This document shows positions 5,759 to 40,300 of a DNA stretch of 63,744 bases, piece after piece. This DNA comes from Pirellulales bacterium (lineage in GTDB: Bacteria > Planctomycetota > Planctomycetia > Pirellulales > JADZDJ01): assembly GCA_020851115.1 (NCBI GenBank), contig JADZDJ010000247.1, positions 1-63,744 of the forward strand. Direction: 5' to 3'. Positions within the stretch are counted from its first letter, which is position 1. Every line of letters begins with the position of its first letter. The translations under genes and the position numbers were made by a program. Under the pieces are notes generated by a model. It saw only the letters and a list, made by a program, of their open reading frames with translations, was not told where the DNA came from and searched no databases.

Positions 5759-6658
5759 CTATGGCACTGCCTCTGGTTTGGTATATCGTACCCCGGTTGC
5801 CTTGGTCTTCCGCCGAAATAGCTTATCCGTGCTGGTGGCATAAAGCGAATCGAATTTTGGGCCAGCAAATGTCAGATTCGACAGAAATGCCGACTGAGGT
5901 TTTTGGATAATTCCTATCAACCGACCTTCCACGTCGAACACCTGGACGCCCAAAAACGTTGCAACATACACGCGGCACTCGGTGTCCACCGTCATGCCGT
6001 CGGCACCGCTGGAGCCGCGGTCGGGGGGCGTCAGCATCGCATAGAATCGCTCTTTGTTGCTTAATAATCCGTTGGAATCGATACGAAATGTCCACAGATT
6101 TTGGCCCGCAGTATCGGCAACGACCAGCGTGCCCTGTTTCGGCCAGAGGATGATTCCATTGGGCCTCTGGATGCCTTGATCGACAGGGACCGCGCTTCCC
6201 GCTCGATGAGGAACATACCAGACAGTTCGCTTATCCGGCTCGGTGAAATAGACCGTACCGTTGCCGGCGACCACCAGATCGTTGGGCAAGACATCGGCGG
6301 CAATCACCGTTTCGATGCCGCTGGAATCGTAAGCCACGACTCGTTTTTTCCCGAATTGACAAGCGTATAAACGGCCGTCGGGACCAAACATCAGGCCGTT
6401 GCTGCCGCGGCTGTTTTGGATGAACACTTCCGGCACGCCTCGGTCATTCAATCGGTAGATTTTGTTGTTTGGCACATCGCTGAAATAGAGTCTGCCGGTC
6501 GAATCGGCCGCGGGGCCTTCCGTGAATTTGAATCCCTCAGCGACGAGTTCCCAGTTTTCGCCGTCAATCAGGATGTCCGCGAGCCGATCTTGAGCGCCGG
6601 CGGCCGACAGGCCGACGGCAAACGACAAAATCAATGCCAAAGGGCGAACGATCGTCAT
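5759..6658 (-). CDS. Secreted SMP-30/gluconolactonase-like beta-propeller protein
   Basis: The 299-residue product begins with a signal peptide (MTIVRPLALILSFAVGLSAAGAQD). It continues as the six-bladed propeller of the SMP-30/gluconolactonase/LRE family. Recurrent blade motifs include FTEGPAADSTGRLYFSDVPNNKIYRL, GSNGLMFGPDGRLYACQFG, PNDLVVAGNGTVYFTEP, RPNGIILWPKQGTLVVADT and GADGMTVDTECRVYVAT. The EGP, N-D/N-G and DGM positions correspond to the usual metal-binding Glu/Asn/Asp residues. Family members hydrolyse sugar lactones or organophosphates; many exported planctomycete copies have no known substrate. Location is probably periplasmic or outside the cell. The next minus-strand gene is the secreted esterase, suggesting a small degradative group. 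Confidence 0.85.
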   Translation of the reverse strand: MTIVRPLALILSFAVGLSAAGAQDRLADILIDGENWELVAEGFKFTEGPAADSTGRLYFSDVPNNKIYRLNDRGVPEVFIQNSRGSNGLMFGPDGRLYACQFGKKRVVAYDSSGIETVIAADVLPNDLVVAGNGTVYFTEPDKRTVWYVPHRAGSAVPVDQGIQRPNGIILWPKQGTLVVADTAGQNLWTFRIDSNGLLSNKERFYAMLTPPDRGSSGADGMTVDTECRVYVATFLGVQVFDVEGRLIGIIQKPQSAFLSNLTFAGPKFDSLYATSTDKLFRRKTKATGVRYTKPEAVP

Positions 6659-6940
6659 TTTTCCGCTACTCCTAAATTACTCACGCTTTCGCCGCATATC
6701 TGCAGAAACCACCGCTGGTACGGATTTGGCGGGTTGGGAGTGGCAAGTCCAGGGAAATCAGATCAACGCGGATAGACTCAGCAGGCGTGGAATTTTTCAC
6801 CTCAGTGGTCACGTTTCCCGATCAGCATTTATCTTGCATCGGGATTCAACTCTGTTTTCTGGACGATTCACGTTGATTCGCGATATCTTGGGATCAACTT
6901 CGGATTGAGCAATTGACGTCCGTCCGCGTCAATTAGCGAT

Positions 6941-7834
6941 TTACTCCGCGTCGATTCTTACATCCCGCCACAACCATCGTAATGCATCTGGCAATACTGC
7001 TCCGCCGTGTTTGCCGTTGTGGGCGCCGTCGCCATAGTCAAAACGAAAGTCATACTTGGCATATTTCAATGCCGCGGCCATCTCTTGGTTTGCCAGCGGC
7101 CAATTGCCGTGCTGGTTGTCCAAGTCACCGGAGCCGTCTTGCAGATAAACGCGAATTGGTTTGGGCTCGGACTTCCGAATCAACGAAGGATAGACGTGGC
7201 CGCCGCGAATGTTCGTGAAACTGCCGACGTGGCTCATCACTTTGCCAAAGGCATCGGGGCGCTCCCAAGCGACAGTCAAGGCGCAAATTCCGCCGCTACT
7301 GATGCCGGCAATGGCGCGATGTTCTGGCTTGTCCGATAGATGATGGTCCTTGGCGACTTCCGGCAGAATCTCGGTGAGTAGAAATCTCGCATATTGATCG
7401 CCCAGCGTATCGTACTCAAAGCTGCGGTTGTGCCGCGATTCTTCGCCACCGTTCGTCGGGGGAACAACGCCTGGATTGACGAACACTCCGATCGTCACCG
7501 GCATCGCCTTCTCGTGGATCAGATTGTCAAACACGACTGGCACACGAAACGGGCCGTCTTCCTTGACGTAATTCTCTCCGTCTTGAAATATCATCACGCA
7601 TGCCGGCGTTTTTCCGTCGTATTGCGCAGGTATGTAAACCCAATAATCCCGCTCGGATCCTGCGAAGACTTTGCTCGCCCAATGGCGCTGCGAGACCTTG
7701 CCTTGGGGCACTCCATCATGCCGCATCGAGTCGGACCCGAGTTGATAATCGTCGGCAGATTGCACGCAATCGGCAGCCGTGATTGATACGATTGAAAAGC
7801 TCAGTAGAAGCGCCAAACCTTGACGAGCGCGCAT
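6941..7834 (-). CDS. Secreted esterase, enterochelin-esterase/esterase D-like alpha/beta hydrolase
   Basis: The chosen ATG at 7834 gives 297 residues with a signal peptide ([23 protein letters not shown]). A GGAG lies about 10 bases upstream of that ATG. The open frame runs 80 codons further upstream without protein-like sequence, so the long version was rejected. The body matches the putative esterase (Fes/esterase D) fold: [28 protein letters not shown], then [33 protein letters not shown] with the nucleophile Ser in GISSGG, an Asp in [11 protein letters not shown], and a late His in [11 protein letters not shown]. It probably cleaves carboxylic esters in the periplasm, for example on polysaccharides or siderophores; the exact substrate is unknown. 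Confidence 0.85.
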
Positions 7835-8267
7835 GATCGGCATTCTCCAAATTTTTGGGTTTGGCGTGACGACCAGGCAAGTTCCCAGACGCCAAATGGC
7901 CGCTAATGTCGAATTGTGGCGTTTTACCGAAATCCCAGTCGGGGAAAGATTTAACAGTTTAACCAAATTGCTTGCAGCCGGGGGAATGAAAATCAAGAAA
8001 ATCCGATTCCACCGACTCCAGGGTCGGTTTTCCACCCCCGGGAATCGTGGTAAGCTGTGGACGCTTGTTTTCAAGTCTGCCGATGTCTAATGGACGTGGA
8101 AAAAACCATCCTCCACTCGGCCGACGCAACCTTGCAGAATACCCGTGAAATAGCGATTAGAGCAAGCAGCGGGAACGTTTGAGTTGGAATAATAGCGCCG
8201 CCGGCAAGCCTGAACCGACACTCCGCGTGTCAAGGCGGACGATCTTTCTAAGGGAGAATTCGGAATC
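7835..8267. other. Divergent intergenic region
   Basis: This 433-base stretch separates the minus-strand esterase from the plus-strand FAAL-ACP-oxoamine synthase gene, so it should hold promoters for both. I see no convincing -35/-10 pair. The only clear signal is the AGGGAG ribosome-binding site at 8251-8256 before the GTG at 8268. No coding region is supported. Confidence 0.6.
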
Positions 8268-11200
8268 GTGCATCTCGATCACTTACCTGGATCGTTTTTT
8301 GGACCATCAAATCTGGTCGATTTACTACGCCATCGTGCCGCCCACCAGTCCAACGACCTGGGCTTCTTGTATTTGGTCGACGGCGAAAAAGAAGAAATCC
8401 GCTGGACCTATGCCGAACTTGACCGTCGAGCGCGGGCGATCGCAGCGTGGCTGCAATCGCGCAATTTGCAAGGCGAGCGAGCGCTCCTGTTGTATCCGAC
8501 TGGCTTGGATTTCGTCGCCGCCTTTTTCGGCTGTGTATACGCGGGGGTCGTCGCAGTGCCGGCCTATCCTCCGCGAAAAAATCGCTCGTTGGAACGCATC
8601 GAAGCGATCGCCGACGACGCCGAGGCGAAAGTCGCCCTCAGCACTCAAGAAGTCCTGGATCGCGTGCAGGGCGTGCTCGATGAAAATCCCGGTTTGCGAT
8701 CGTTGCATTGGTGTGCTACCGACCGTTTCCCTGAAGGCATCGAACGCGATTGGCGACAGCCGGAGGTTCACGGCGACACGCTAGCCTTCTTGCAATATAC
8801 GTCTGGCTCGACCGGGACGCCGAAGGGCGTCATGCTCAGCCACGCGAACTTAATGCACAATTCCGCGCTGATTAGCTATGCCTTCGAGCATACGCGCAGC
8901 GGCGTCGGAGTATTTTGGCTCCCCAGCTATCACGACATGGGCCTCATTGGCGGCATATTGCAGCCGATGTACTATGGCCGGCCCAATGTGCTGATGTCTC
9001 CGATGTCGTTCTTGCAGCGCCCGCTGCGCTGGCTACAAGCGATCACCAAATACAAGGGCACGGTCAGCGGCGGGCCAAATTTTGCCTACGATTTGTGTAT
9101 CCGACGCATTTCTGCCGAGGATCGCAAGGACTTGGACTTGAGCACATGGGTGCTGGCATTCAACGGCGCCGAACCGATTCGCCCAGAAACGCTGGCTGAA
9201 TTCGCCAGAGTCTTCGGCCCGTGCGGCTTTAGACCGGAAGCGTTCTATCCGTGCTACGGGCTGGCGGAGGCAACGCTGATGGTCACTGGCGGCCTGAAGT
9301 CGGCGCTTCCTGTGGTTCGTACCTTTGACGCCAAAGCATTGGAAAGCAATCGAGCGATCGATGCGCTCCCCGAAGAAGAAGGAACTCGCTCGTTGGTTGG
9401 TTGCGGCACATCGCTCTCCGATCAAGACATGGCCATCGTCGATCCTGAAATGATGACCCAATGTCCTGTCGGCCGGATTGGCGAGATTTGGGTCGCCGGT
9501 CCCAGCATCGCCCAAGGCTATTGGCGACGCGTGGACGAGACGACCAATACTTTCCGAGCATATTTGAAAGATTCCGGTCGCGGGCCGTATTTGCGCACCG
9601 GCGACCTGGGCTTTGTGCGCGAGGGGGAATTGTTCGTCACCGGCCGCTTGAAAGATTTGATCATTGTTCACGGCCGCAATTACTACCCACAAGACATCGA
9701 AGCGACGGTCGAGCATGCGCATCGATTGATCCGGCCGATGGCCTCGGCGGCATTCACCGTCGATGTTGGGCGGCGAGAGCGGCTGGGAATCGTCGTTGAA
9801 GTTGAACGTGGCCGAAATCGAACTGAAGCCGAGCTGAACGAAGTGTTCGACGCCATCCGCAAGGTGGTTTCTGCAGAACACGAAGTACCGGTCGAGGCTA
9901 TCGTCCTGATCAAGTCCGGCAGCATTCCCAAGACATCGAGTGGAAAAATTCAACGCCATGCTTGCCGCAACGGTTTCTTGCGAGGCGACGAGTTGGAAGC
10001 GATTGCTCAATGGCACGCATGGGAATCGCCATTGGTCGAAAGTGCGGCTTTGACACCAACCGTGGAAATTGCTTTGGCGCAATCGACCAACGGTCATCTT
10101 CGCAGTGGCTTGGCCGATCGCTCGTCGCCGATTTCGACTGCAACGGCGACCATCGTGATGGAGCAAATCGCCAAAGTTGCCAAAGAGCGGGCCAAAGGCC
10201 TGATGCTCGACTCGAATATCCTCGAAATGAGCATGGATTCGCTCGAGCGAATGGAAATCGTCGCCGCCCTCGAAGACACCTTCGGCGGCCGATTTCCTGA
10301 AGACGTGTTGCCAGACTTGATCTTGGTGCGCGATGTCGTCGCAGCGGTCGAAAAGTATCTCGGCAAGACGCCACGAAAGCGTGACGCGGTGCCGACCGAG
10401 GAAACTCCAGCCAGTCATTATCGCGTCGATCAGTTTCCAGAGTACTTGGCGCTGAAGCAGCAATGGAACGCGCTTGCCGGCACCGGCGCGCGAAACCCGT
10501 TCTTCACCGTTCACGAGTGCGTGATCGATGACACAACCATCGTCGGCGGACGCGAGTTGATAAGCTGGTCGAGCTACAACTATCTAGGAATGTCGGGCGA
10601 TCCAGTCGTGTCCGAGGCGGCGAAAGAAGCCGTCGATCGCTTCGGAACGAGCGTTTCCGCCAGCCGACTCGTTTCCGGCGAAAAGACGATTCACCGAGAA
10701 TTAGAACGTGCCATCGCCAGCTTCGTCGGCGTTGAAGACTCCGTCGTGTTCGTTTCCGGCCATGGCACCAACGAAACGACGATCGGCCATCTGTTTGGCC
10801 CAGGTGACCTAATCCTGCACGATGCACTCGCGCACAACAGCATCATCCAAGGTTCGATACTCAGTGGTGCCCGACGACGGCCATTTCCACACAACGATTG
10901 GCAAACGCTCGACCAATTGCTCGGCGACTTGCGGCACGAGTACCGACGAGTGCTGATCGCCATCGAAGGTATCTACAGCATGGACGGCGACTACCCCGAT
11001 CTGCCGCAGTTCATCGAAGTGAAAAAGAAACACAAGGCGATGCTGTTGGTCGACGAAGCCCATTCGCTCGGCGTGATGGGGCCTCATGGCCGCGGGATCG
11101 GCGAACATTTCGATGTCGATCCGGCAGACGTCGAAATCTGGATGGGCACGCTTTCCAAATCGCTCGGCAGTTGCGGCGGATACGTTGCCGGCGGCAAAGC

Positions 11201-11666
11201 GCTGATCGAGTATTTGAAGTACACAGCCCCTGGCTTCGTCTTCAGCAACGGCATGTCGCCTCCCAATGCCGCGGCGGCATTGGCTGCGCTGCGGCTTTTA
11301 GAAGAAGAATCGGAGCGGGTCGATCGATTGGCATCTAACAGCAAGCTGTTTCTGGCATTGGCCCGCGAGCGCGGCCTGAATACCGGTCGCAGCCGCGATT
11401 CGGCAGTGGTGCCGGTGATCTTGGGCAATTCGCTGCACGCCCTGCAATTATCCCAGGCCCTGTTCGCCGCTGGGATCAATGTCCAGCCGATTTTGCACCC
11501 CGCCGTTGAGGAAAGTGCGGCCCGGTTGCGATTCTTTATCACGTCACGTCATACCGAAGATCAAATCCGCACGACGGTCGACGCGGTCGCTGAACAGCTC
11601 AAGAAAATCGATCCGTCGCACCTGCGGCACAAGGCCGTGGCGCAGCAACAGCAAGTGGGGGTTTGA
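8268..11666 (+). CDS. Three-domain fusion: fatty-acyl-AMP ligase, acyl carrier protein, PLP-dependent alpha-oxoamine synthase
   Basis: The 1,132-residue product joins three enzymes. Residues about 1-600 are a fatty-acyl-AMP ligase: the P-loop FLQYTSGSTGTPKGVMLSH, the substrate-side YHDMGLIGGILQP, YGLAEATLMVTGG, and the catalytic Lys560 in SSGKIQR. Residues about 625-700 are an acyl carrier protein with the phosphopantetheine Ser658 in MDSLERME. Residues about 725-1115 are an alpha-oxoamine synthase of the KBL/AONS/serine palmitoyltransferase group: SSYNYLGM, SVSASRLVSGE, HDALAHNSIIQGS, LLVDEAHSLGVMG, and the PLP lysine Lys964 in GTLSKSLGSCGGY. By family knowledge the ligase activates a free fatty acid, loads it on the ACP, and the last domain condenses the acyl thioester with an amino acid to give an amino ketone. 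A sphingoid-base precursor is a plausible product, but this is inference. The GTG start has AGGGAG 11 bases upstream. A hotdog thioesterase follows. Confidence 0.93.
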   Translation: MHLDHLPGSFFGPSNLVDLLRHRAAHQSNDLGFLYLVDGEKEEIRWTYAELDRRARAIAAWLQSRNLQGERALLLYPTGLDFVAAFFGCVYAGVVAVPAYPPRKNRSLERIEAIADDAEAKVALSTQEVLDRVQGVLDENPGLRSLHWCATDRFPEGIERDWRQPEVHGDTLAFLQYTSGSTGTPKGVMLSHANLMHNSALISYAFEHTRSGVGVFWLPSYHDMGLIGGILQPMYYGRPNVLMSPMSFLQRPLRWLQAITKYKGTVSGGPNFAYDLCIRRISAEDRKDLDLSTWVLAFNGAEPIRPETLAEFARVFGPCGFRPEAFYPCYGLAEATLMVTGGLKSALPVVRTFDAKALESNRAIDALPEEEGTRSLVGCGTSLSDQDMAIVDPEMMTQCPVGRIGEIWVAGPSIAQGYWRRVDETTNTFRAYLKDSGRGPYLRTGDLGFVREGELFVTGRLKDLIIVHGRNYYPQDIEATVEHAHRLIRPMASAAFTVDVGRRERLGIVVEVERGRNRTEAELNEVFDAIRKVVSAEHEVPVEAIVLIKSGSIPKTSSGKIQRHACRNGFLRGDELEAIAQWHAWESPLVESAALTPTVEIALAQSTNGHLRSGLADRSSPISTATATIVMEQIAKVAKERAKGLMLDSNILEMSMDSLERMEIVAALEDTFGGRFPEDVLPDLILVRDVVAAVEKYLGKTPRKRDAVPTEETPASHYRVDQFPEYLALKQQWNALAGTGARNPFFTVHECVIDDTTIVGGRELISWSSYNYLGMSGDPVVSEAAKEAVDRFGTSVSASRLVSGEKTIHRELERAIASFVGVEDSVVFVSGHGTNETTIGHLFGPGDLILHDALAHNSIIQGSILSGARRRPFPHNDWQTLDQLLGDLRHEYRRVLIAIEGIYSMDGDYPDLPQFIEVKKKHKAMLLVDEAHSLGVMGPHGRGIGEHFDVDPADVEIWMGTLSKSLGSCGGYVAGGKALIEYLKYTAPGFVFSNGMSPPNAAAALAALRLLEEESERVDRLASNSKLFLALARERGLNTGRSRDSAVVPVILGNSLHALQLSQALFAAGINVQPILHPAVEESAARLRFFITSRHTEDQIRTTVDAVAEQLKKIDPSHLRHKAVAQQQQVGV

Positions 11667-11759
11667 TCGATTGTAAAATGCAAATTTAAGAAAGCAGACT
11701 ATCGGTCGGCGGCGATATGCTATGATTTTGGGAGCATTATTCGGAATTTTGCTTTTTGC

Positions 11760-12260
11760 ATGGTTCAAATTGCATATTCTGAAACCCAAACCCTGAATCG
11801 TTCCTTGTCCTCCGTAACGCTTACTCATCGACTGATTCTGCCGGTGGATACGAACCATCACGGCACGCTGTATGCCGGTTCGCTGTTGCGGATCGCCCTT
11901 GAGGCCGCCTACGGCACGGCCTTTCGCTTTATCGGGCAGGATGCCAACTTGCTCTTGCGGCGAGTGCTGAGCATTGAGTGTTATAAGCCAGTGCCGCAAG
12001 GCTCGATGATCGAAATTCGCGGCACGATCTTGCATGTAACTCGGGCGTATTTGGTCACCGGTTTGATTGGTACAACGCTAACCGGTCAAAAGTCACCATG
12101 GATGGATGGACTTATGGGCTTTGCGCAGGTTGACGACGACGGCCGGGCGGCCGAGTTTCCGAGTGATCTTGACATTGGCACACCGGCGGCCGAATGGCGG
12201 AAGCTGCACGAACGAATGAAGAAACTGCTCCGCATCCGCGGCCGAAACGGCGCTGATTGA
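11760..12260 (+). CDS. Hotdog-fold acyl thioesterase
   Basis: The 166-residue product looks like an acyl-CoA hydrolase of the hotdog superfamily. The segment LPVDTNHHGTLYAGSLLRIALEAAYGTAF matches the YciA/acyl-CoA thioesterase signature (N-H-x-G-T-x-x-G-G region followed by the central helix), and VLSIECYKPVPQGSMIEIRGTILHVTRAYLVTGLIG forms the expected beta strands. It would hydrolyse acyl-CoA or acyl-ACP thioesters in the cytoplasm. It lies 93 bases downstream of the FAAL-ACP-oxoamine synthase gene on the same strand, so it could release mis-loaded acyl chains from that enzyme. No strong ribosome-binding site is seen before the ATG at 11760. Confidence 0.8.
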   Translation: MVQIAYSETQTLNRSLSSVTLTHRLILPVDTNHHGTLYAGSLLRIALEAAYGTAFRFIGQDANLLLRRVLSIECYKPVPQGSMIEIRGTILHVTRAYLVTGLIGTTLTGQKSPWMDGLMGFAQVDDDGRAAEFPSDLDIGTPAAEWRKLHERMKKLLRIRGRNGAD

Positions 12261-25385: not shown

Positions 25386-28300
25386 ATGACACGCAATCGA
25401 ACTTCGCCGCGTCGAGGCGCACGTAAATCCGGCATCCTTCGCCGCAGCCTGGATCGCTTCCGTAGCCGATTTCCACGCCTGCTGCGCACCGATTTCTGGA
25501 CGGCTTCCCGCAGCCGCGGGCTTTGGACGTCGATTTTCGGCGAGCGCCGCTCGACCGCGGCACGTTCGGTGAAATCTGCCGCACCGACGCGCAAGGCAAG
25601 AAGTTCCGCGAAGAAATCGCCGCGAGCCGATCGGCCGACACGGCGATATCGCAAACCGGAGAGCTTACACGTCGAGAGCCTTGAGCCGCGGCAGTTGCTG
25701 ACAACGACTCTCGGCTTGGGCGATATGGCGATTACGGGCTATGCATCGGACGGCAACAAGATTTCCATCGCTCTCTTGAAGCCCGTCGATGCAGGAACGC
25801 AGTTCACCGTCACTGATGAAGGCTGGCTTTCGGGTCAATCCGGATTCCGAGGAACGACGGAAGGGGAAACAACGTTCCAGATTAATTCAACGCTTGCGGC
25901 CGGTACTCAGATTTCACTCGATTTTGCTAACACCACCTATTCAAACGGCATCACCTCCTTCGCCGGAGGTAGCGACTTGCCGGTGCTATCGTCAAGTGGA
26001 GACCAGATATTTATTTACAACGGCGGATTTGCGAATCGACCGACTTCGGGAACTGCGTCGAGCTGGGTCACAGGGTTTCAGATGCATGGATTAGCGGATT
26101 GGGATTTGAACTCAAGCTCCTCATTAACTTCGGCCAAGCCGACTATTTTCACCGATGGCGACACCTCGTTTGCTGGCTTTAATCCGGAAGTTGACGACGC
26201 CGTGCTCAACAATCTCGGAACGGTGTCTGGCGGGCCGGGCGACATTCGCGCGGTTGTTTATGAATCGTCGAATTGGACGGTTAGCGATGGCCCTGCACCG
26301 ACGATCCCTGGAACGACAATGTTTACAGTCACGGGCATGGCCGAGCAGTTGGTGATTGATTCGAGTGTCTTTGCGGCTGCCAACGGGCAGGTAACGATCG
26401 AAGTGATCGGTGGCGACTTCGTTGTTTACGATTCCAGCGATTTCGCCAAAACGCCTCTGATTCCAACGCATGCGGTCGGCAGTGTAACCGATATCGCTGT
26501 CACCGGGCGCGATGACGCCGACGATGCACTTACCCTAGACGGCTCGACGCTCGTCACTGGAGTTGGAATTGACTATGACGGCGGCGACAATGGGCACGAT
26601 ACGGTCAACATTGATGCCGCGACGATTAACTTTGTCAAGGTTGAATGGCACTATTCCGGCCAAAAAGATGGCGACTTGATCTTCGACCAGGACGGCCCTG
26701 GCGCGACGCCGGCAACGACAGTTGTTTATGAAGACTTGGAGCCGGTATTGGTCAATGTCGGCTCGATTGCCGATGCCGACTTCACCTTGCCTGCCGGTGC
26801 AGAGGCCGTACTGGAAGACGATGGCATGGGCGGATTGCAGTTGCGGAGCACCAATAGCACGTTTGAGTTGACCGGATTCACAACGCCGACCAATAGTTTG
26901 AAGATTTCCGGCGGCAACAAATTGGAAGTCACTAAATCGCTGTCGGTGGCCGGCTTCATCACGCTCGACGTGCCAGAAGTGAGTCTCGATGCAGACCTCG
27001 TAGCGCCGACGATCAGCGGCGGGACGGGAACGCTGGCGGTCCATGTGCTGTCGAACAATGCCCAAATCGCCGACGCGATTGCCATCGCAGCCAGCGGTGC
27101 GACGGTCAGCGTGGCTGCCGGCACGTACATCGAAGATGTGAACGTCAACAAGGCCCTCAGTTTGCAGGGCGCCGGCCATGCGTCCTCGACCATTAGCGGT
27201 GCGATCGGCGGCGACAACGCGACCGTGCGCATCAGCGCAAGCGGTGTCGAGATTTCTGGCTTCACCATCACACGTGAAGGAAACAACGTCTCCCAGTGGA
27301 ACGACTCGAATCTTAATTCAGCCGGCATTGCCATCATCGGCCAAAGCCTGAGCGGCATGCTGATTCACGACAACCTGATTACCGGCAACCGTACCGGCAT
27401 CGACATCAACAACAGCAGCGGCCACACGGTCCGCAACAACGAAATTGTCGATAACCATACAGGGATGATCTTCCGCAATCAGACCGACAATCTGACGATT
27501 GTGGAAAACAAGATTACCGATAATCGCACCGTCGGCATTTTGTTTCTCGACGCCAGCGGCGGGTCGAACAGCCCTGTTCAGACAGCACTAAATAGCAATT
27601 TCAGCAATAACAACATCAGTGGCAACTGGTACGGCGGCATCGTTGATCGGCAAAGCGGTGGATCGCTGCCAGCGCCGGGAACGACCAACCTGAAAAACTT
27701 CAGTGGCAATTGGTTTGGGGCGAATTCCCCAGTAATCACGACGGCTAACAGCGCCGAACCTGCGTATTCCAGCCTGATTCCTGTTGTCTATGGCGGCACG
27801 GCAACGCCGCCTGGAGGCCAGCCTGACATCGCCGGGCCTGCTTCTGCAAACTTCGACATTTCCCCGTTGCTGGATGTCGGGACTGACACGGACGTAGAAA
27901 CGACACTCGGTCAAGGTACCTTTGGCTTCCAAGGAAGCCATTCAACCCTTCTTGTTACGCAGGCCGGCGCGCAGACTGGCGCAACAGGCCGCATTCAAGA
28001 AGCAGTGGATTCCACAGGCAGTAGCGGTACGGTGCGGATTCTCGCCGGCACCTATGTTGGCAACGTCGATGCAACGTCCAATGCAGTATCCCTCGCGCCA
28101 GGCGCCAGCCCAGCTCAAGTCACCGTCGATGGCGATCTAACGCTCGACGGCGACGATACGCTCGAAATCGAAATCGAAGGGACTAATTCGGCGACGCAGT
28201 TCGACAATTTTGTGGTCACGGGGACCGCGACGCTCGGCGGGGCCGCAGTCAATGTCACTGGCAGCTATGTACCGCTGCCTGGAGACTCGTTCACGATGAT

Positions 28301-31300
28301 TGACGGCGCGGTGCGTTCGGGTACGTTTTCGACCGCCAGTGCCATGCTCAATGGCATCCCGATGTCATTTAGTTATACTGCGGACGACGCAGTTTTGTTG
28401 GTCGACGCGCCATCGGACGTGTGGGTCGATGACGATTGGGTGGGCACATTGGCCTACGGTAACAGTGTCAGCTCGGACGGTGACGATGGCGACGATTTGG
28501 TATCGGGCAAAATCTACGGGTACAACGCCTTTAGCGACACAGCATCGGCCCTCACGGCTGTGGCCACCGGCGGCACGATTCATGTACTCGCCGGCAGCTT
28601 CAGCGGCGCCCTCAGCATCAACAAAGATGTGTCCATCGATGGCCAGAGCGATGCGCTGACTCACCTTGACGCTAGCAGTGCCATGACCGGCATGGATGTG
28701 CTGGCCGGGTTCAATGTCACGATCTCCGATCTCGACATCACCAACTTTAGCACCAACGGCATTCACGTCTTCGGTAATCTGGATCTGAACGCCAGTTCAA
28801 TCATTGGCGGACTCGTGGGCGCGTGGGTCGATGGCGGCACGCTCGATGCCCTCTCGACGATCATTTCCGGCGCGGCGATCTTTGGCGTGCAGGTTAGTTC
28901 GCTGGGAGATGCGAATATCTCGACGAGCGAAATCACCGGTGTTGGCACAACGGCTGCTTCAGTGATTGTATCTTCCGGCCATGCGGACATTTTGACCAGT
29001 ATTCTCACCAACAGCACGCGCGGCTTGTTGGTCAACGCCACCGGCAGCGCGACGATCCACGATAGCAATCTCGCGGGCAATACGGTGCGCGGCGTTGAAA
29101 ACGCCACGGCCGCCGTCGTCGATGCTTCGGGCAACTGGTGGGGATCGAGCGTCGAAGGAACGGTGGCCGCCGGAACGCTGGGATTGATCGACTTTACTCC
29201 GTATCTCGACAGCGGTGCGGATCTCGATAGCGGCGCGCGCGGGTTCGAGGCTGACAAGTCGCATGTTCACGTCACAAAGCTAGGTCAGCAGACGAGCGGC
29301 TTCCGCGTGCAGGAAGGCGTGAACCTGATCGCCGATGGTTCGTTAACCGGCGGCAGCCGCATCGTGACAGTTGAAAACGGCAGCTATGATGAAACGGTGC
29401 TGGTCAACAAATCGTTGAGGCTGCAAGCGGCCACGGCGCTTGGCACTCAACTGATGCGCACCAGTGGAACGCAGCAGACCATTGTTTCGATCGACTCGAC
29501 CGACGTCACGATTGACGGCCTTGAGATCCAAGTCAATCAAAATTTCAGCAGCGGACAACCGATCGCCCCAGTGGGCATCGGGGCGGTGCAGACGGAGTTC
29601 GACGGGCTAACGATCGAGAACAATCGTATTACCTCGATCGGAACAAGCGACGGCCTGTGGAGCGGATCGCCGAGTCTGACGACATCGGCTGCGGGTATCG
29701 TGCTCTACGACAGCCCGGCGGGCGGAATTCCGTCGGTGACGATCGAAGACAACCAGGTGTCGGTGGCCGCCATCAGCGGCGCGGCCAGTTTTTTCCAGCG
29801 CGCGGTTTGGATCACCCAGGCCAACGTACAAATCACCGGTAACGTCTTCGCGGGCGCCACCAACGACCTGCAGTTTCAATTTGCCTCCGGCGGCTCATCG
29901 CTGATCGACGATAACGACTTCATCGGGCAACACCGCGCGGGGGGCGGCGGCGTCGTAATTGCTGGTCCAAACACTAGCGCGCCGATAACGGTCAGCAATA
30001 ACCACTTCACGCCGACCGCGGGTGATCCGGCCGGCATTCAAACGGGCCTCGTGATCAATGAAAACTGGAACGGCGCGACATCGCCCGTCACAGTGCTTGG
30101 CAATACCTTCACCGGCGATGTGATCGGCGTTTTGTCGGGCAACTCAAACGGCCTAACAATCGATGGAAACACCTTCACTCCGGCGACGGGACTTCCCTCG
30201 CAGCCGGCTCTCGGTGGCAACGCGTTTGTTCATGTCGTGGTCGATTCCGATGCTCCCAGCGGCGGTGACAGCGCATCGCTACCGGTGTTTGCCGACATCA
30301 AGAACAACACCTTCAATGCGGCCACTGGATCGAGCGGCACGGCCGTCGTCGTGGCCGACCATTTGCCCGGCACGTTCGATGACGTGAAGATCGGCGTCAA
30401 TGGCGATAACACTTACGATGCCGATCTGGTAACCGGTGTTCAGGTCGCTGGCGGCAAAGCAACCATCAGCGACACGATTTCGAACCTCGACACTGCCGTA
30501 CTCGTCAGCGGCGGCGCGGCAAATGTCACTGCCAGCACGCTGACCGGCAATACAACGGGCGTACTCGTCACCGGCGCTGGAGCGATTGCTGTCGGCTCAG
30601 GCAACGTCGTTGGCGGCGGTACGACAGGCCTGAAATTCGACGGCGCAGCGGTGAGCCTTACCAGTTTAGACCTAAACGACTTGTCGATTAGCGGTACCAG
30701 CGGAGACTACATCACGCTGGCCAATAGCGCGTTCGACAATCTTGACCTCGACGGTACGAACCTAACGCTCGACGGTATCAACGTCGGCTCGATGACGCCG
30801 CCGCAATTGTTCGCGGCCACGAATAAGATCACTGACGAAATCGACGACGGCACGCTCGGACTGGTGCTGCTCACCGCCAATACGATTTACGTCACGCCGG
30901 CGGCGACGCCGACTGCGACGGACAACGACTACACGCGCATTAAGAATGCCGTCGAAGCCGCTGGCGATAACTTCAACATTTACCTGCTGGGAACGTTCGA
31001 TTGGACAGAAACAAACGCCGCCGCATCGTGGGCACTGGGGAACGACGGTGTCAGCGGTGGCGGTGACGATTTTTCGATTCGCGTGCCTGTTGGCCTCGAT
31101 GGCGTTACCTTCACCGCTTTGGGTGGCATCGGCGGTGCGACAATCTTAGGGCCGGGCGAACAGGTTGGCCATGCTGGCGGCATGTTGGCCTTCCGCGGGG
31201 GCCCCAATACCGGCTGGACGATCTCCGATCTCGACATTCAAGACTTCGAAAATGCAATCGGCTTTTTCTACGGCGCCGGCGGCAATCACGCCTACGACAA

Positions 31301-34300
31301 CACGACAATCACCGGAAATCACATTCTTGTGCCGTCGGACTTTCACGCGGGCATCGACAGCACCACCAACGACGATATCGAGCCGGGTGCAGGCAAAGAC
31401 ATCAATGTCGCGATCCACCTGTCTTTTGGCGACAACATTACCGTCTCGAACAATGTGATCGGCTTCCCCGGCACCGGCGTCAGCGATTCTGGCAATGGCA
31501 ATTACGCCAATTCACAGGGGATCTTGTCCGATACGAATGGCGCCGCCTATGAGGGCCTGCAAATCTCCGGCAATATTTTCAACGTGCTTGGCGCGCAATC
31601 GGCCGATCCGGAAGTGATCATTGGCGTTTGGGACAACGGCCACGCGCACACGAAAAATATTACGATCAGCGGCAACGAGTTCCACAATCTTGATTCCGGC
31701 AACGATCCGACGCTGAATTTGCAACGTGCCTTCCGTGTTACTTCGCACTCTGGAACATCGAGCACCGTCACTTATTCCAACAACACCGTCGATGGTGCGA
31801 ACGTCGGTTGGCAATGGCTGAGCGGCGAAAACTTCGCGGGCAATCAACCGGTCCAAATCATTGGCAATACGCTCACGAACGTGAGAACCGGGTTCCTCGT
31901 TCAATCGAACGGTCTGGCGCATTTCAGCGACAATTCAATGACCAACACCGGCGCCATGTTGGGCGTTGGAACTGGTATCGACGTGCGATCCGGCTCGATC
32001 GTCGACATCGACGATTCAACCGACGACAACGGCATGGTCGGCTTTGCTACTGGCATCAAGACCGCCGGCACAACGACGATCTCCGGTAACGGCGGATCGA
32101 TTCACGGCAATGCGGTTGGCATCGACGTCACCGCAGGCACCGCGGCAATCACCGGCAATCATATCTACGATAACGACATCGGCATTCGTTTCGGCGGCTC
32201 GGCCGGTGGATCAGTTACGGGCAACGACTTCGATGGTGCGACCGATAACGATACCGACTTGATCATCAACACGACGGGCGTTTTGGCGATTGGCGCGGGG
32301 AACAGCTTTGCCGGAGATTCGTTCCTCATCGACAACCAAAGCACTCAAAGCTTCAACCTTTTCGGCGCAAATGCTCAAACCTTCGATGAGGCCGATAACT
32401 TCCGCATTGAAGACAAGATGCACCACCCGGTCGATTCGGACGATACTTCCGCCGGTCTGATCTATTGGGTGGAAGACAATGTCTATGTGACGACGCCAAG
32501 CGTCGGTTCGACCGACTCCAGCATCCAAGGTGGAATCAACGCCGCTAACACCGGCGACACCATCAACGTCGAGATGGGAACTTATGTCGAAAACCTTGCA
32601 ATCAACAAAAACCTTACGCTCCTATCCGCATCGGGGCGAACGGCGACCACAATTCAAGGTATTTCCGGTGCCGGTGCTCTGGGCACGATCGTGATTTCCG
32701 GCAGCACGACCGACGTCAATATCGGCGGCCCATTGGGCGGTGGATTCGTCATCCAGGGGATCGACAATGGCCTTGCTGGGATCGAAAACGGCGCGATTTA
32801 CATTTCTGGCAGCCACAGCGGCATGGACATTCGCTGGAATGAAGTTGTCGCCAATGGCGATCATGGGCTTGTTTCGGAATACAGCGCGACAATTGCGAGC
32901 CTGAGCATCGACCATAACATCTTTTCGGGCCAGACGTTCACGGGTCCGAACCCAGGCGGCGCTGGATTCGGCGCGCAATTCACTCTGCCCAACGTGCCGA
33001 GGCAACTCGTTGTTTTCGGCAACTCAGCTCTCAAGTCGGACATCGACTTTTCCAATAACCAGATCAACGGAACGGCCGGTGGAATCAGCTTGACGGACAA
33101 CTCCGGCGCGCCCGTCGCCGCTCACGAGCAAGGCAACGTACTTGTGACGATCGATGCGACTGGCACTATGATCACCGGCAACCAATTCACTGGCACAACC
33201 ACCAGCACCGCTTACAGCTTGAGGGCTCGCGGCGCAAACAACACCATCACGGGCAATCAATTCGCTAGTTCCACGATGGGAACGACAACCGCCGACTTGA
33301 TGGTCAACAACAACGGCAACGCCATCCGGGGAAATACGTTCAGCAGTTCGGCAGGCGCAGCCATTCAGATCTCCGGCGGCAGTGCGACGATCGGCGGCTC
33401 AGGGATGGGAGAGACGAACTTTATCACCGGCTATGACGCCGGCGTTCTCGTAACCGCTGGAAATGCGATTCTCGATTCCAACTCGATCGCTGGCGGTACT
33501 GTTGGATTGTGGGCCGCCGGTGGCAAAATCCGGGCAGAAAACAACGATCTGACCGGTAATTTAGTGGGCATCCGCGTTCAGAACGACGCGACCGTCGATG
33601 CAGGCTCTGACAACGGCCTTGATGGCGATCCCACCAGCTTGGGCAACAGCATCGGGCAGAATATTCTCGTCGGATACAGCGGCGTCGGCGGCAATTACGC
33701 GATCGAAGATTTGAATCAAGATGCGCTGGGCAACGTCGACGTTTACGCCCGGAACAACAACTTCGGCACGGCCAACCCCAGCGCCATCGAGCAAGTGGTC
33801 TTCCATACGGTCGACGATGCGCAGTACACGCAAGTGTTCTATACTCCCGCGATCAATCCGCCGGGACAGACGCCGCCGCCGGTGGAGGTGTGGGTCGATG
33901 ACGATTGGATTGGTACCGGCCTGGGCGTCGATGCCGACCCCGGCGACATGACCGACGGCACGTTCTTCGGCTACGACCAGTTCACCACCATTCAAGAGGC
34001 AGTAAATGCCGTCATCGGCGACGGCACGGGCATTGTCCATGTGCGCGCGGGCAGCTATTACGAAAACGTCGATGTCAACAAGAGCGTGTTGATCGATGGT
34101 GCCGGACAAACCAATACATTCGTCTATCCTGCCGTCGCCAATCCAACGGGCGGCTCGCTGGGCAGCGTGGTGCTGCTGGTCAACGAGGACAATATTACGA
34201 TCCAAGGTCTGACCGTGGACGGCGACAATCCAAATCTTGGCGCCATGGGATCGATCGAAGCCAGCACCGGCATCGTCACCAATTGGAACCAGGCTACGTC

Positions 34301-37300
34301 GCTCACCGGCATGGCAGTGAAAAACGTCACGGTGCAGAATGTCTATCTTCGCGGCATCTATTATGCCAACGGCAACGACTTCGGCACCGGCGCATTCGAC
34401 TTCGAAGGCAATACGGTGACAAACGTCAAGAGCGATCCCGCCTCGATCGCCATCTTCAACTTTGGCGGCTACGGCACGATTGCAGGCAACACGGTGTCTG
34501 ATGCTGCGGACGCGATTGCGACGAACTGGTCAAACGGCACGGAGATTTCTGGCAACACGGTCACCAATTCGGGCAGCGGAGTTCACTCCGACAACAACGG
34601 CGGCGCCGGCGGTGTGGCCGATTCGATTCACAACAACGATATCTCGCTTGGCACCTCTGGTAGCTACGGCATCTTCGTGTTCGTGCCGTACAAAGATGTC
34701 ACGGTCGAGAACAACCAGATCAGCGGCGTCGATACCGGCTTGGCGGCCTTCGGCGGCATGGGCGGCTCGGCCAGCTTCACCGGCAACACGGTCAACGTGA
34801 ACGCCGGCGGCACTGGAGCTTACGTCACCACCGACACCCTTGGCTATGGCCAGATGAATGCCTCCGCAACGTTTAGCGGCGGCAATTTCACCGGCGGCGA
34901 TACGGGCATCCTTGTGGAAGAGAACATGGGTGCGACGGCGACTGTCGGCATCAGCGGCGTCACGATCGACGATCCGCTCGTCGGCATCGATGTGACCGGC
35001 GGCGGCGTCACGATCGATGGCAATCACATTTACAACAACGCGACTGGCATCCGCGTCAGCGGGGGCACGGCCACGATCGACAACAACAATTTCGCCGGCG
35101 GGATGGATCCGAATAACGCTACCGACCTGCTGGTCACGGGAGGCACGATCGGCAACGGAGGCGTGCTGACAGGGAACACCTTTGCCGGCTCGAATTTCTA
35201 CATCGATCTACAAACGACTCAAGACCTGTCCGCGCTGACGCCGTCAAACACCTTCCAGGGCGCGGCCGACGACTATCGCATCGAAGACAAGATGCATCAC
35301 CGAGTCGATACCGATTTGGCGCTATCGAACGGCCTGGTGAGTTGGGTCACGAACAACCTCTACATCACGCAGCCGGGCGGCGGCAGCCTGGATTCATCGA
35401 TCCAGCGCGGCGTCGATGCGCTGCCGGGCGGACACGTGGTCAACGTGGAAGGGGGCGTGAACCCCTACGTGGAATCGGTCGCCATCGACCGCGCCGTCAC
35501 AATCGACGGCCAGGGCAACGGCCCGACGCCGACCGCGACGATCACGGCAGTGGCGTCGGGCGTCACGCTCGTGAACGTCGTTTCGACCAATCCGACCGAC
35601 GATGTCGCCATCCAGGATATTGCGTTTGCCGGGGTCAACGGCGGCAACGTGGCCGACCTGGGGGTAAACGTACCGGCCAGTGCGAACTTCGACACGCTGA
35701 CGATTGACCGCTCGACGTTCACCAGCCTGCACCTCGTTGGCGCGTACGTGCAGGGCGACGGCGTGACGGGCGCATCGGCACACCACGTGGTGATCAGCAA
35801 TTCGACGTTCACCAACAACGGCTACAACACCGGCGGCGCGGGCGACATCGGCTTCTTTTTGTACAACCAAGATGCCAGCCTGTCACACCTGACGCTCTCC
35901 AATGACGGGGCGCTCGGGGCGCGCCTGGGCATCCAGTTCCGCGGCGTAGGGGCGGGCGACGGCACGGGCGTGATTGCGATGGGCGCTGTCTCGCTCGACG
36001 ACGTGAAGATCACAGGCAAATACCGCACGCAATTCGTCGGCATCCAGCGGTACAGCGACGTGACAACACTTACCTTGAACGACGTGGAACTGGGCGGAGC
36101 CAGCTCGGAAATCACCGGCGGTTTTGGCGCTCTGCTGCGGTTCGACGCCGTCGGCAGCGGCACGCTCGCCAGCCCGGCGACCGTGGACCTGGGCAACACC
36201 TATTTCCACGGAGTGGCCGCCAGCAGCGCCGTCAAGAACGACCTCGAGTTTGCGCCCGATAATACGTTCGCGTTCCTGCGAGCCGACGCCACGAATACGC
36301 GTTGGGACACGGCCACGGACAGCGGCGTCGCTGTGCCGGCCGCTAGTTTGACGATTGCCCAGGCTTACGAAGTCGAAGATCGCATCCTGCACTATGTCGA
36401 GCCCGACAATTCCGGCCAGCCGGCCAAGGGCTGGGCCGAAGTTCAGGATGGCCAGGCATTCGTCACGTCCACCTTCGGCAGCATCATCAACCGCGCCATC
36501 GAAGTCGTCGATGACCTTGGAACCGTGCATATCGCCAGCGGCACCTATACGCAGTCGGTCAGCACGGCCGGCAAGAGTGTCACACTATCGGTGGGCGCCA
36601 GCCCCGGCGTAGTTACCATCAACGGCGATGTTACGCTCGATAGCGATGATACGCTGCTCATGGAAGTCAACGGTTCCACGCCAACGTACACTCCGGGCGT
36701 CGATCACGATCAATGGGTCGTCAATGGCGTGGTAACTCTCGGCGGCGCAGTGCTCAACACTGCGGGCAGCGGCGTGACGGCCACCCAGGGCGATGTGCTC
36801 ACCCTCATTGACAACGACTCCAACGATTCCGTCGGCGGCACGTTTGCGGGCGTAGCCAACGGAGACGTGATTCTAGTCAACGGCGAACCGTTCTTCGTGT
36901 TCTACACGGGTGGCACGGGGAACGACGTGGTGCTGGCCCGCGCTCCGGACGGCACCTTGCCGGGCATGACACCGGCGCCAACGGTCGTCTTTGTCGATGA
37001 CGACTGGTCGAGTGATGGCGATGGTGTCGATGCCGACGGCGCAACGGGCAACGTTGTTGCCAATTGGGATTCGATGACGCTCACTGGCGGCTTGGCGGGA
37101 GGCGTGGCCAATGGCACCGCCATGGGCTACGACCAGTTCGACAACATTCAAGACGCCGTCAACGCGGTGGCGGCCGGAGGCACGATCTTTGTCTATGCCG
37201 GCAGTTACGTTCAGCAAATTACGGTCGATCGGGCGCTGACTCTGTTCGGAGCCCAAGCCGGGCAAGATGCGCGGACCCGATCCACGACGCCGGCCGACGA

Positions 37301-40300
37301 GACGGTGGTGCTGCCCGACATCTCCGATCCCGATCCGAACAATAGCCCCTACCCGACTTTGATTTATGTCGAAGTCGGCGGCGTGAAGATCGACGGCCTG
37401 ACGCTCGACGGCGACAACCCGAACCTGACCAGCGGCGTCATGCTGAACGGCGCGGACATCGACGCGGAAGAGGGCATCGCCTCGTACGAAGGCGTGGGGA
37501 ACATCACCGTCGAAAACAACATAGTTCATAATTTCAGCTACACGGGTATCGATTTCTACAACTTTACCAACGACGCAGCCACCTCGAACAACCTGATCGC
37601 GCACAACCTAATCCAAAACCTCGGCGCGTTCGATTGGGGCATCGGCGTGCTGATATACAACAACTTCTACGCGGATATCGTCGAGAACAAGATCGAGGAC
37701 GTGCGGGTCGGCGTGCAGACCGGCAATTTCTATCAGGCCAACCCCGGCGCGACGGCGAATATCTCCGAAAATGAGATTTCCGCCCGCCGCCGCGGCATCT
37801 TCTACAACTTGCATTACGCCAACGCATCGCCGTTTACGGTTGAAGACAATGCGATTACGGCGGTCGATGACCCGTCGGCGCCGATCAACACCACCTGGGC
37901 CGGGATGTTGATCTCCTCGCAGCAAACGGCGGTCTCCGCCGACTTCATCAACAACACCATCGACGGCAGCGCTACCACGAGCATCGCAACCACGGCGGGC
38001 TACAATGTCTGGAATACGCCGACGACCGGCAGCTTGACGATTTCTGGCGGCTCGGTCAGCGGCGTGGGCTACGGCGTGTGGGTCAACAACTACGAAGGTT
38101 ATAACAGCGACGCCGACAACACCGACATCACCATCAGCGGCGTGAACGTCACGGCCGAGTTGATCGGTGTCTACGTGCTGGACAGCGCCTCGAACACGAA
38201 CGGCTCCGCGGTTTCGGCCACGATCGACAACGATACCGAAATCACGACGACCGACATCGCAGGCGTGGGGATCAAAATCGAAGGCGCCGATGCCAGCGCC
38301 ACGATCACCGGCAACGACAACTCCATTCACGACAACCAAGTCGGCATCGATGTCGATGGCGGGAAGGCACTGGTTGAAAACAACGACTTGAACGGCAACA
38401 CGATCGGCGCGTTGATTCAAAACGGCGGCATCGCCGATCTGGGCGATCAGGGCACGAACTTTACCGGCCTGGGAATCAGCGCCGGCGGCAACGATTTCAG
38501 CAGCTACACCGCCGCCGCGACGGCTTTGTCCGGCGCAATCGTGAACCTTAACACCGGCGGAGCGTATTCCGATCCCGGTCCGCAGGGTTTTGCCGGGCCA
38601 GAATACGATGTGGCTGCGTTCGGTAATTTGTGGAACGATGCAACGCCAGCCGGCATTGAAAATGTCGTATGGCACGATGCGGACGATTCGAGCCTTGGAT
38701 TCATTGACTATGCCTCGCTGACGAATCTCGTAATCGACGATCTCAGCATGACGCCGATCGACGAAAACGACGTCGTCACATTGAATGTTTCGTTCACCAA
38801 CGACGCTCAAGATCATACGCTGACGATCAATTGGGGTGACGGCGTGACCGATGTCGTTCATCTCGTGCCGGGAGTATTCGCGTATCCTGCGATGCACACC
38901 TATCTGGATGATGGGCCATATCCCGGCAACGGCACGAGCAGCGACGCGAACAATGTTTCTGTCACGGTGCAGGAAGGCTGGATGCCTGCGACGGGGGCGA
39001 TGCTCGGCGATTCGACCAGCGTGACGGTCAACAATGTTGCCCCACAGTTGACTTCGTTAATCGGAGATACGATCAACGAAGGCGGCCTCGCCACGATTAC
39101 CACCATCATCAGCGACCCCGGCACTCAGGATGTGTTTAGCATCAACGTCGATTGGCAAGATGGCACGCTGATCGACACCATCGGTGGGCTTGGAACCAGC
39201 GACGCCAGCGGTACGGCCGCCAATGGCACCGGCTACGTGTGGGTTGCCGCGACGCGCAGCTTGACGCTCACCCATACGTATCTAGACGACGGACCGTCGC
39301 CTGGCAATGCAACCAGCAGCGATCTGTACGTCGTTGGTCTGTCGGTGGACGACGACGATTTGGGCAACGATAGCGACACGGTCTATGTGACGGTCGACAA
39401 TGTCGATCCGGTCATCGACACGCTCAATATCGGCTCGCCAATCAACGAGTTCACTTCGACCACGCTCGGCGGCACCTATCACGACGATGGCACGCTCGAC
39501 GTGCATCAACTGGATATCGACTGGGATGGCGACAATGTATACGACGAAACGGTCCCGGTTAGCGGAGGCACATTCAGCGTAAACCACACCTACAACGTCG
39601 ATGGTGTATTCACGGTTAACGTGCAACTTCGCGACGACGATTTGGGCGCCGCGACTGGTTCAACGTCGATTACCGTCATTAACGACACGCTCCGCGTGAT
39701 TAGCTTCTCGTCCAATGCCAGCGGGTTCGACGTGACGTTCAACCGAGCGCCGAATTTGGCCCCTCTGAATTTATATTCCGGCTTGCCGGGCGGCTTCGAT
39801 CCAGCCGACGTCACGCTGGTCGGCAACAGCGTCGGCAATGTCAGCGGTTCGATGGTTTGGGAAGCCGGCACCAAGACGCTGCATTTCATCAAGACCAGCG
39901 GCATCTTGGCGAACGACACTTACACGGTCACGCTGGTCAGCGGCTCAACCGCCTTCCACGATGCTTTCGGCAAGCTCGACGGCGACGGCGATCTGGACGA
40001 CACGGAAGTGCCGGACGATTACACCAATAGCTTTGCGGTGAATGTGGTGGTAGGCACTCGCGTCGTCGAAGTGAATGACTTCGCCCGCGGCACCGGCCAG
40101 CACGTGGACGACAATCCGACGGTCGTCCTGTCGCGGTTGGCAGTCAGCGTCAGCAACCGCAACTTGCTACGGTCGATCGACTTCAACTTCCGCTACGATC
40201 CGGCGCTACTAAATGTCGCGGGCGCTTCGTTGGTTTCCGGCCTGCCAGGGGATTGGCAAATCGTCTTCAGTGGCGGCGGCAACACGGGAGTGCTGCACGT

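Follow-up and report, generated by a model that had tools for sequence, protein, structure and literature searches.

A planctomycete fusion of fatty-acyl-AMP ligase, acyl carrier protein and alpha-oxoamine synthase as a candidate one-chain serine palmitoyltransferase

The closest described counterpart of the gene analyzed here is the AasR, AcpR and Spt set of Rhodobacteria (Caulobacter, E. coli BL21), in which a free fatty acid is converted to an acyl-ACP (ACP, acyl carrier protein) and then condensed with serine (PMC9386255). In Pseudomonas fluorescens MYb115, PfSgaB, an alpha-oxoamine synthase (AOS) encoded beside the iterative polyketide synthase (PKS) SgaA, has been purified and binds L-serine; it turns acyl-CoAs into 3-ketodihydrosphinganines and is virtually serine-exclusive over alanine and glycine, and a KDSR-like short-chain dehydrogenase/reductase (SDR), SgaC, is present in the SgaAB cluster (PMC12134224). 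A further relative is the RkpA/RkpG system of Sinorhizobium. Here, we describe a gene at positions 8268..11666 (+) of the window, the whole 63,744-nucleotide stretch analyzed (contig JADZDJ010000247.1 of a Pirellulales bacterium), whose product joins a fatty-acyl-AMP ligase (FAAL), an ACP and an AOS in one chain of 1132 residues. From sequence comparison, we put the probability at roughly 70% that this fusion is a self-loading enzyme of the serine palmitoyltransferase (SPT) type, which would start a ceramide pathway with dispersed genes.

The predicted chemistry of the fusion follows that of AasR, AcpR and Spt, and the window's genome has a homologue of the Aca/bCerS partner of that set and a CerR-like candidate for the Epi/CerR partner, but there three proteins do the work of one chain here, and the genes of the window's genome are dispersed. 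In E. coli BL21, yghO, the FAAL, a CerR-like reductase, the ACP and the SPT are separate adjacent genes, YghO being a homologue of Aca/CC_1154 (bCerS) (PMC9386255); this agrees with the first-pass annotation, which had seen the fusion as uniting an otherwise separate set of acyl-ACP synthetase, ACP and SPT. The BL21 proteins are 32.7% (AOS) and 34.3% (FAAL) identical to the fusion. SgaAB, likened here by description, is similar in that SgaB is an SPT fed from an ACP-bearing synthase (PMC12134224), and RkpG falls in the same AOS clade as the window domain; in both of these systems, however, an iterative PKS builds the acyl chain, whereas the window FAAL would load a ready-made fatty acid. The same domain layout was already tabulated in 2013, as A-CP-PLP2, for A3ZWL3 of Blastopirellula marina, a planctomycete probably of the same order as the window's organism, and for A1ZVW4 of Microscilla marina, and these proteins were modeled on SPT without being given a function or pathway (PMC3870968). 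PigH (ACP-ACP-AOS) also has an AOS behind carrier proteins, yet it contains no FAAL and feeds a pyrrole pathway (PMC3870968). So far, only Spt-like sequences in metagenomes had marked Planctomycetota as possible producers of sphingolipids (PMC11334938). In the open-access literature, we found no paper that assigns the SPT role to a FAAL-ACP-SPT fusion or links such a fusion with bCerS/CerR. An AOS behind a carrier protein is likewise found in SxtA-type CP-PLP2 proteins, which have no FAAL and feed the saxitoxin pathway.

That the window encodes one intact FAAL-ACP-AOS protein is confirmed. The reading frame starts with GTG, 11 nt downstream of AGGGAG (8251..8256, +), a possible ribosome binding site, and is open throughout. 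Pfam finds, all on the + strand, the AMP-binding N-terminal domain of the FAAL (residues 35-419, 8370..9524; PF00501, E 2.6e-70), its C-terminal subdomain of the DIP2-like AMP C-terminal type (residues 463-573, 9654..9986; PF23024, E 1.3e-11), the ACP domain (residues 630-681, 10155..10310; PF00550 PP-binding, E 2e-6) and the pyridoxal phosphate (PLP)-dependent AOS domain (residues 763-1106, 10554..11585; PF00155 Aminotran_1_2, E 6.8e-51). The lysine, serine and lysine picked out at first pass lie exactly at the positions given. Among 75 full-length relatives, the predicted catalytic Lys560 (motif SSGKIQR, codon 9945..9947, +) and the predicted phosphopantetheine site Ser658, the canonical DSL serine of the ACP (motif MDSLERM, codon 10239..10241, +), are kept in 75/75, as are His856, Asp929 and His932, while the predicted PLP lysine, Lys964 (motif GTLSKSL, codon 11157..11159, +), is kept in 74/75 and Arg1088 also in 74/75, with one gap in the alignment. 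The His, Asp, Lys and Arg set conserved in the third domain is as expected of fold type I PLP AOS enzymes. A homologue search finds the three-domain protein on about 80 independent contigs; the 80 homologues fetched, mostly full length, are nearly all from Planctomycetota (by record title mainly Pirellulales, Thermoguttaceae and Planctomycetaceae), with two from Nostocales. Because the residues are conserved and the same protein recurs on so many contigs, the fusion is neither a chance product nor an assembly artefact.

The first domain is predicted to be a FAAL and not of the CoA-ligase type. With NCBIfam, the N-terminal part scores 607 bits with PRK05691, a model for loading of nonribosomal peptide synthetases and PKSs, and up to 468 bits with FAAL models, whereas the CoA-ligase model PRK06187 reaches 187 bits. 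The closest solved structures in a PDB search are the FAALs 7r7e, 7r7f and 7r7g, which carry the annotation polyketide synthase, at E about 1e-194.

In two maximum-likelihood trees, the window AOS falls in an RkpG/PKS-linked clade (support 99/97 and 100/98) together with S. meliloti RkpG, AOSs from capsule clusters of Paraburkholderia and Caballeronia, an AOS beside an iterative PKS on a Pseudomonas plasmid, and PKS-fused AOS domains. KBL, BioF and ALAS lie on the opposite side of the tree (99/95), and the classical bacterial SPTs form a separate clade with the cysteate fatty acyltransferases (CFATs; 100/98); in neither tree does the window AOS group with CFAT. Phylogeny of this domain had been named beforehand as a test, and the absence of clustering with the biotin-pathway AONS/BioF speaks for the first-pass annotation. 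Its SPT-type reading is upheld as far as the domain lies outside BioF, KBL and ALAS, and needs amending in that the domain belongs to the RkpG/PKS-linked clade rather than to the classical SPTs. The NCBIfam cut-offs for SPT are missed (314 versus 640 bits and 284 versus 500 bits), and the domain neither groups with KBL and ALAS nor reaches their NCBIfam cut-offs. An AF2 model of the AOS domain (pLDDT 89.8) superposes on the SPT structure 3a2b, ranked first, at 1.7 Å over 392 residues, but the fold alone is not decisive because KBL tied with 3a2b within 1 Z unit. Within the window's own genome, the best match of an SPT probe is the fusion itself, and the other two close AOSs are, by their scores, a BioF and a KBL. 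The same genome encodes a third, very divergent AOS-like protein (L092, C260:15833-16954), about 28% identical to the fusion domain and on a very long branch. Npun_R3567, reported to make no ketosphinganine (PMC8895605), was set aside as a counter-example: this short AOS resembles BioF and lacks the FAAL-ACP-AOS architecture, and as another type of protein it offers no argument against the fusion as an SPT.

Relatives of the window AOS are combined with several other loading modules. The planctomycete genome G121 encodes a KS-AT-DH-ER-KR-ACP-AOS protein, a complete iterative PKS whose AOS is 65% identical to the window domain, and AOS-ending proteins of similar size occur in Planktothrix, annotated as type I PKS, and in genome G107. 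A Streptomyces plasmid encodes a KS-AT-ACP-AOS protein, and in genome G097 FAAL, PKS, ACP and AOS are separate, side-by-side genes. FAAL-ACP-AOS proteins themselves occupy several separate branches of the tree; the AOS of a second such protein in G121 (L117, 3624-6950) lies outside the RkpG clade, together with the AOS of a Streptomyces cluster, and this domain order has therefore originated or been reassembled on more than one occasion. This suggests that the AOS needs an acyl-ACP presented in cis, for which FAAL and PKS would be alternative suppliers. The PKS, AOS and SDR cluster on the Pseudomonas plasmid, with an AOS 58% identical to the window domain, serves as our proxy for SgaB, known here by description, and SgaB is probably a relative of the window AOS. 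An SDR gene also follows RkpG, and in Nostoc (Nostocales LEGE 12452) the stop of the fusion overlaps a downstream SDR by 5 bp, the best PDB match of which is the 3-ketodihydrosphingosine reductase TSC10 (E 9e-27), with only a small lead over other SDRs. We dropped the sponge swf cluster as a source of an AOS relative, since it contains no AOS. In the planctomycete genome G107, the AOS-ending protein (2530 residues, with a PKS-like start) opens a cluster (L118, 2713-12954) that continues with a CdsA-like cytidylyltransferase, a KDSR-like SDR and a YegS-type lipid kinase, which could lead to a sphingoid lipid carrying a phosphate or activated with CDP.

The first-pass annotation correctly noted that no ceramide synthase or ketoreductase adjoins the fusion, and the genome search it proposed for sphingolipid partners finds a ceramide synthase homologue and a CerR-like protein elsewhere, far from the fusion. 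The bCerS homologue (C80:19807-20910) is the single strong full-length match to YghO, with 35% identity over 370 residues (E 5e-63). For CerR, the E. coli protein gave weak matches only, and we therefore used as a probe a planctomycete CerR that adjoins an SPT-type AOS and bCerS (L157), which finds a CerR-like reductase at C278:63212-64246, the match covering 63217-64242 (E 9e-41). In a tree, this protein joins a clade (99/93) of bCerS-adjacent CerR-like proteins from related genomes, and three other epimerases of the same genome fall outside. A search of the genome for a KDSR/RkpH-type SDR was abandoned, as it returned many weak SDR matches of about 32% identity and none outstanding. At L159 (genome G167, 6008-8546), and also at L176 and L178, the bCerS homologue is tandemly duplicated, the copies being about 55% and 36% identical to that of the window's genome; in some genomes the pair forms one frame of 774-854 residues, possibly a two-domain N-acyltransferase.

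Do fusion and ceramide synthase travel together? Among 147 genomes of the window's order, with presence of the AOS clade defined as E at most 1e-80 and counts read by hand from per-genome tables, 117 have both the AOS clade and a bCerS homologue, 18 have neither, 3 have the AOS clade only and 9 have bCerS only (Fisher p 9e-14 by genome, relatedness ignored). Collapsed to 89 genera, the counts are 75, 8, 2 and 4 (p 3e-7, relatedness again ignored). A few of the AOS-clade matches are PKS-AOS proteins, with open frames near 2580 residues, in genomes that also have one of about 1140 residues. The CerR-like gene adjoins bCerS in 31 genomes, on the opposite strand and with gaps of 81-2024 bp. In other planctomycete classes, the neighbor of bCerS is a free-standing AOS from the clade of classical SPTs and CFATs (L155, L156 and L157). 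Since the fusion and genes resembling ceramide synthase occur together nearly throughout the order, a large group of planctomycetes may make sphingolipids in this way.

The observed architecture, residue conservation, clade, bCerS homologue, CerR-like protein and co-occurrence are the basis for the following proposal. The FAAL domain would use ATP to adenylate a free fatty acid to acyl-AMP, and the acyl group would pass to the phosphopantetheine arm that Ser658 carries in the protein's own ACP domain, presumably as loading in cis. In a decarboxylative condensation, the PLP domain would then use Lys964 to join the acyl-ACP to an amino acid, most likely L-serine, and would release a 3-keto long-chain base. 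The YghO/bCerS-type N-acyltransferase (C80) and the CerR-like reductase (C278) would then yield a dihydroceramide; both the order of N-acylation and reduction and the ceramide-type end lipid are conjectural.

Several observations weigh against this proposal. The window AOS does not belong with the classical bacterial SPTs (Sphingomonas, Sphingobacterium, E. coli BL21), the amino acid is fixed by none of the structures and residues examined, and SgaB is represented in the AOS tree by its Pseudomonas plasmid proxy. Between the CerR-like protein and E. coli CerR, identity is only about 25%; the gene of the CerR-like protein does not adjoin bCerS in this genome, and CerR-like matches also occur in genomes that have neither of the other two genes (G200, G235, G270, G276 and G281). 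The p-values above are not corrected for relatedness; in the nine genomes of the order that carry bCerS and not the AOS clade, a search for a stand-alone SPT gave no clear orthologue, and a phylum-wide sample contains seven planctomycetes of other classes with the AOS clade and no bCerS match.

What else could the fusion make? The same machine could work with a different amino acid, such as alanine or glycine, in which case the product would be a long-chain amino ketone, for example a 1-deoxysphingoid; we regard this as unlikely. The active-site columns, tried and dropped as a predictor of the amino acid, are not diagnostic: they are nearly identical across AOS specificities, and Ser799, common to the window AOS and SPT, also occurs in one protein annotated as ALAS. 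In addition, the Black Sea study reported that Spt can use alanine and proposed other amino acids (PMC11334938). The strong preference of the PKS-linked SgaB for serine over alanine and glycine (PMC12134224) nonetheless favors serine, and the position of the window AOS outside the CFAT clade speaks against cysteate.

Slightly less probable still is that the long-chain base anchors a surface polysaccharide as its lipid part, or is a secondary metabolite, and does not go into bulk membrane ceramide, with the tie to bCerS and CerR being indirect. The closest stand-alone AOS relatives do lie in RkpG-type capsule clusters with LTA-synthase-like and SDR genes, and the planctomycetes of other classes that have the AOS clade and no bCerS match fit such a role; however, across the neighborhoods of 78 loci the planctomycete fusion has no conserved capsule genes around it, and the fusion gene, near-universal within the order, follows bCerS in its occurrence. 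A variant of the biotin-pathway 8-amino-7-oxononanoate synthase, loaded with pimelate through its own FAAL and ACP, seems barely credible: although the third domain scores best, among NCBIfam models, with TIGR00858 bioF, its 345.5 bits stay below the 426.45-bit cut-off, the genome has its own bioF that passes this model (440 bits) as well as a kbl beside tdh, and BioF lies across the 99/95 split of the tree.

The self-loading SPT-type reading has wider implications. On a slight balance of probability, we hold that ceramide synthesis in a large planctomycete order begins with a one-chain SPT whose evolution was separate from that of the classical SPTs, its AOS domain being drawn from a clade in which FAAL-ACP and iterative PKS loading are interchanged and here combined with bCerS and a CerR-like protein; this would constitute a third bacterial sphingolipid route beside classical SPT and PKS-SgaB. 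The self-loading reading provides a defined hypothesis of three genes (the fusion, bCerS and the CerR-like gene), testable in cultured strains. One clade with exchangeable loading modules unites the PKS-linked AOSs, the rhizobial capsule AOS genes and the FAAL-loaded planctomycete enzyme, and the long-open question of the products of RkpG-type enzymes therefore becomes directly testable. If the proposal is true, an SPT that works as one chain on free fatty acids would also be a convenient tool for biocatalysis.

Downstream of the fusion, a 166-residue open reading frame (11760..12260, +) is thioesterase-like, a relative of hotdog-type acyl-CoA hydrolases whose best PDB match is 1vpm (E 3.5e-8); no Pfam or NCBIfam model reaches it. 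The first-pass annotation had proposed an editing enzyme. Since none but the closest relatives (G214, G231 and G229, with 72-83% identity, and L009) have the frame beside the fusion, among the relatives examined, that role is unsupported; the frame is probably not part of the core system, editing within this small group of close relatives is possible, and our model does not need a thioesterase. A conserved operon around the fusion was sought in the 78 loci and none was found, the commonest neighbors being a BBP7 porin-like gene (15) and a zinc-ribbon protein (9).

Two further loci came to light. On the Legionella lytica plasmid NZ_CP071528.1 (L094, 9863-14734), a CFAT-like AOS, with 28eh as its best PDB match (E 5e-106), a 970-residue fusion of FAAL, ACP and the phosphosulfolactate synthase ComA, and a ComB phosphatase are encoded in a row, which looks like a compact operon for sulfonolipids of the capnine type with another FAAL-ACP arrangement. 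In the window itself, a reading frame of 5568 residues at 25386-42092 (+) contains right-handed beta-helix and NosD-type repeats and encodes a giant repeat protein that is probably exported.

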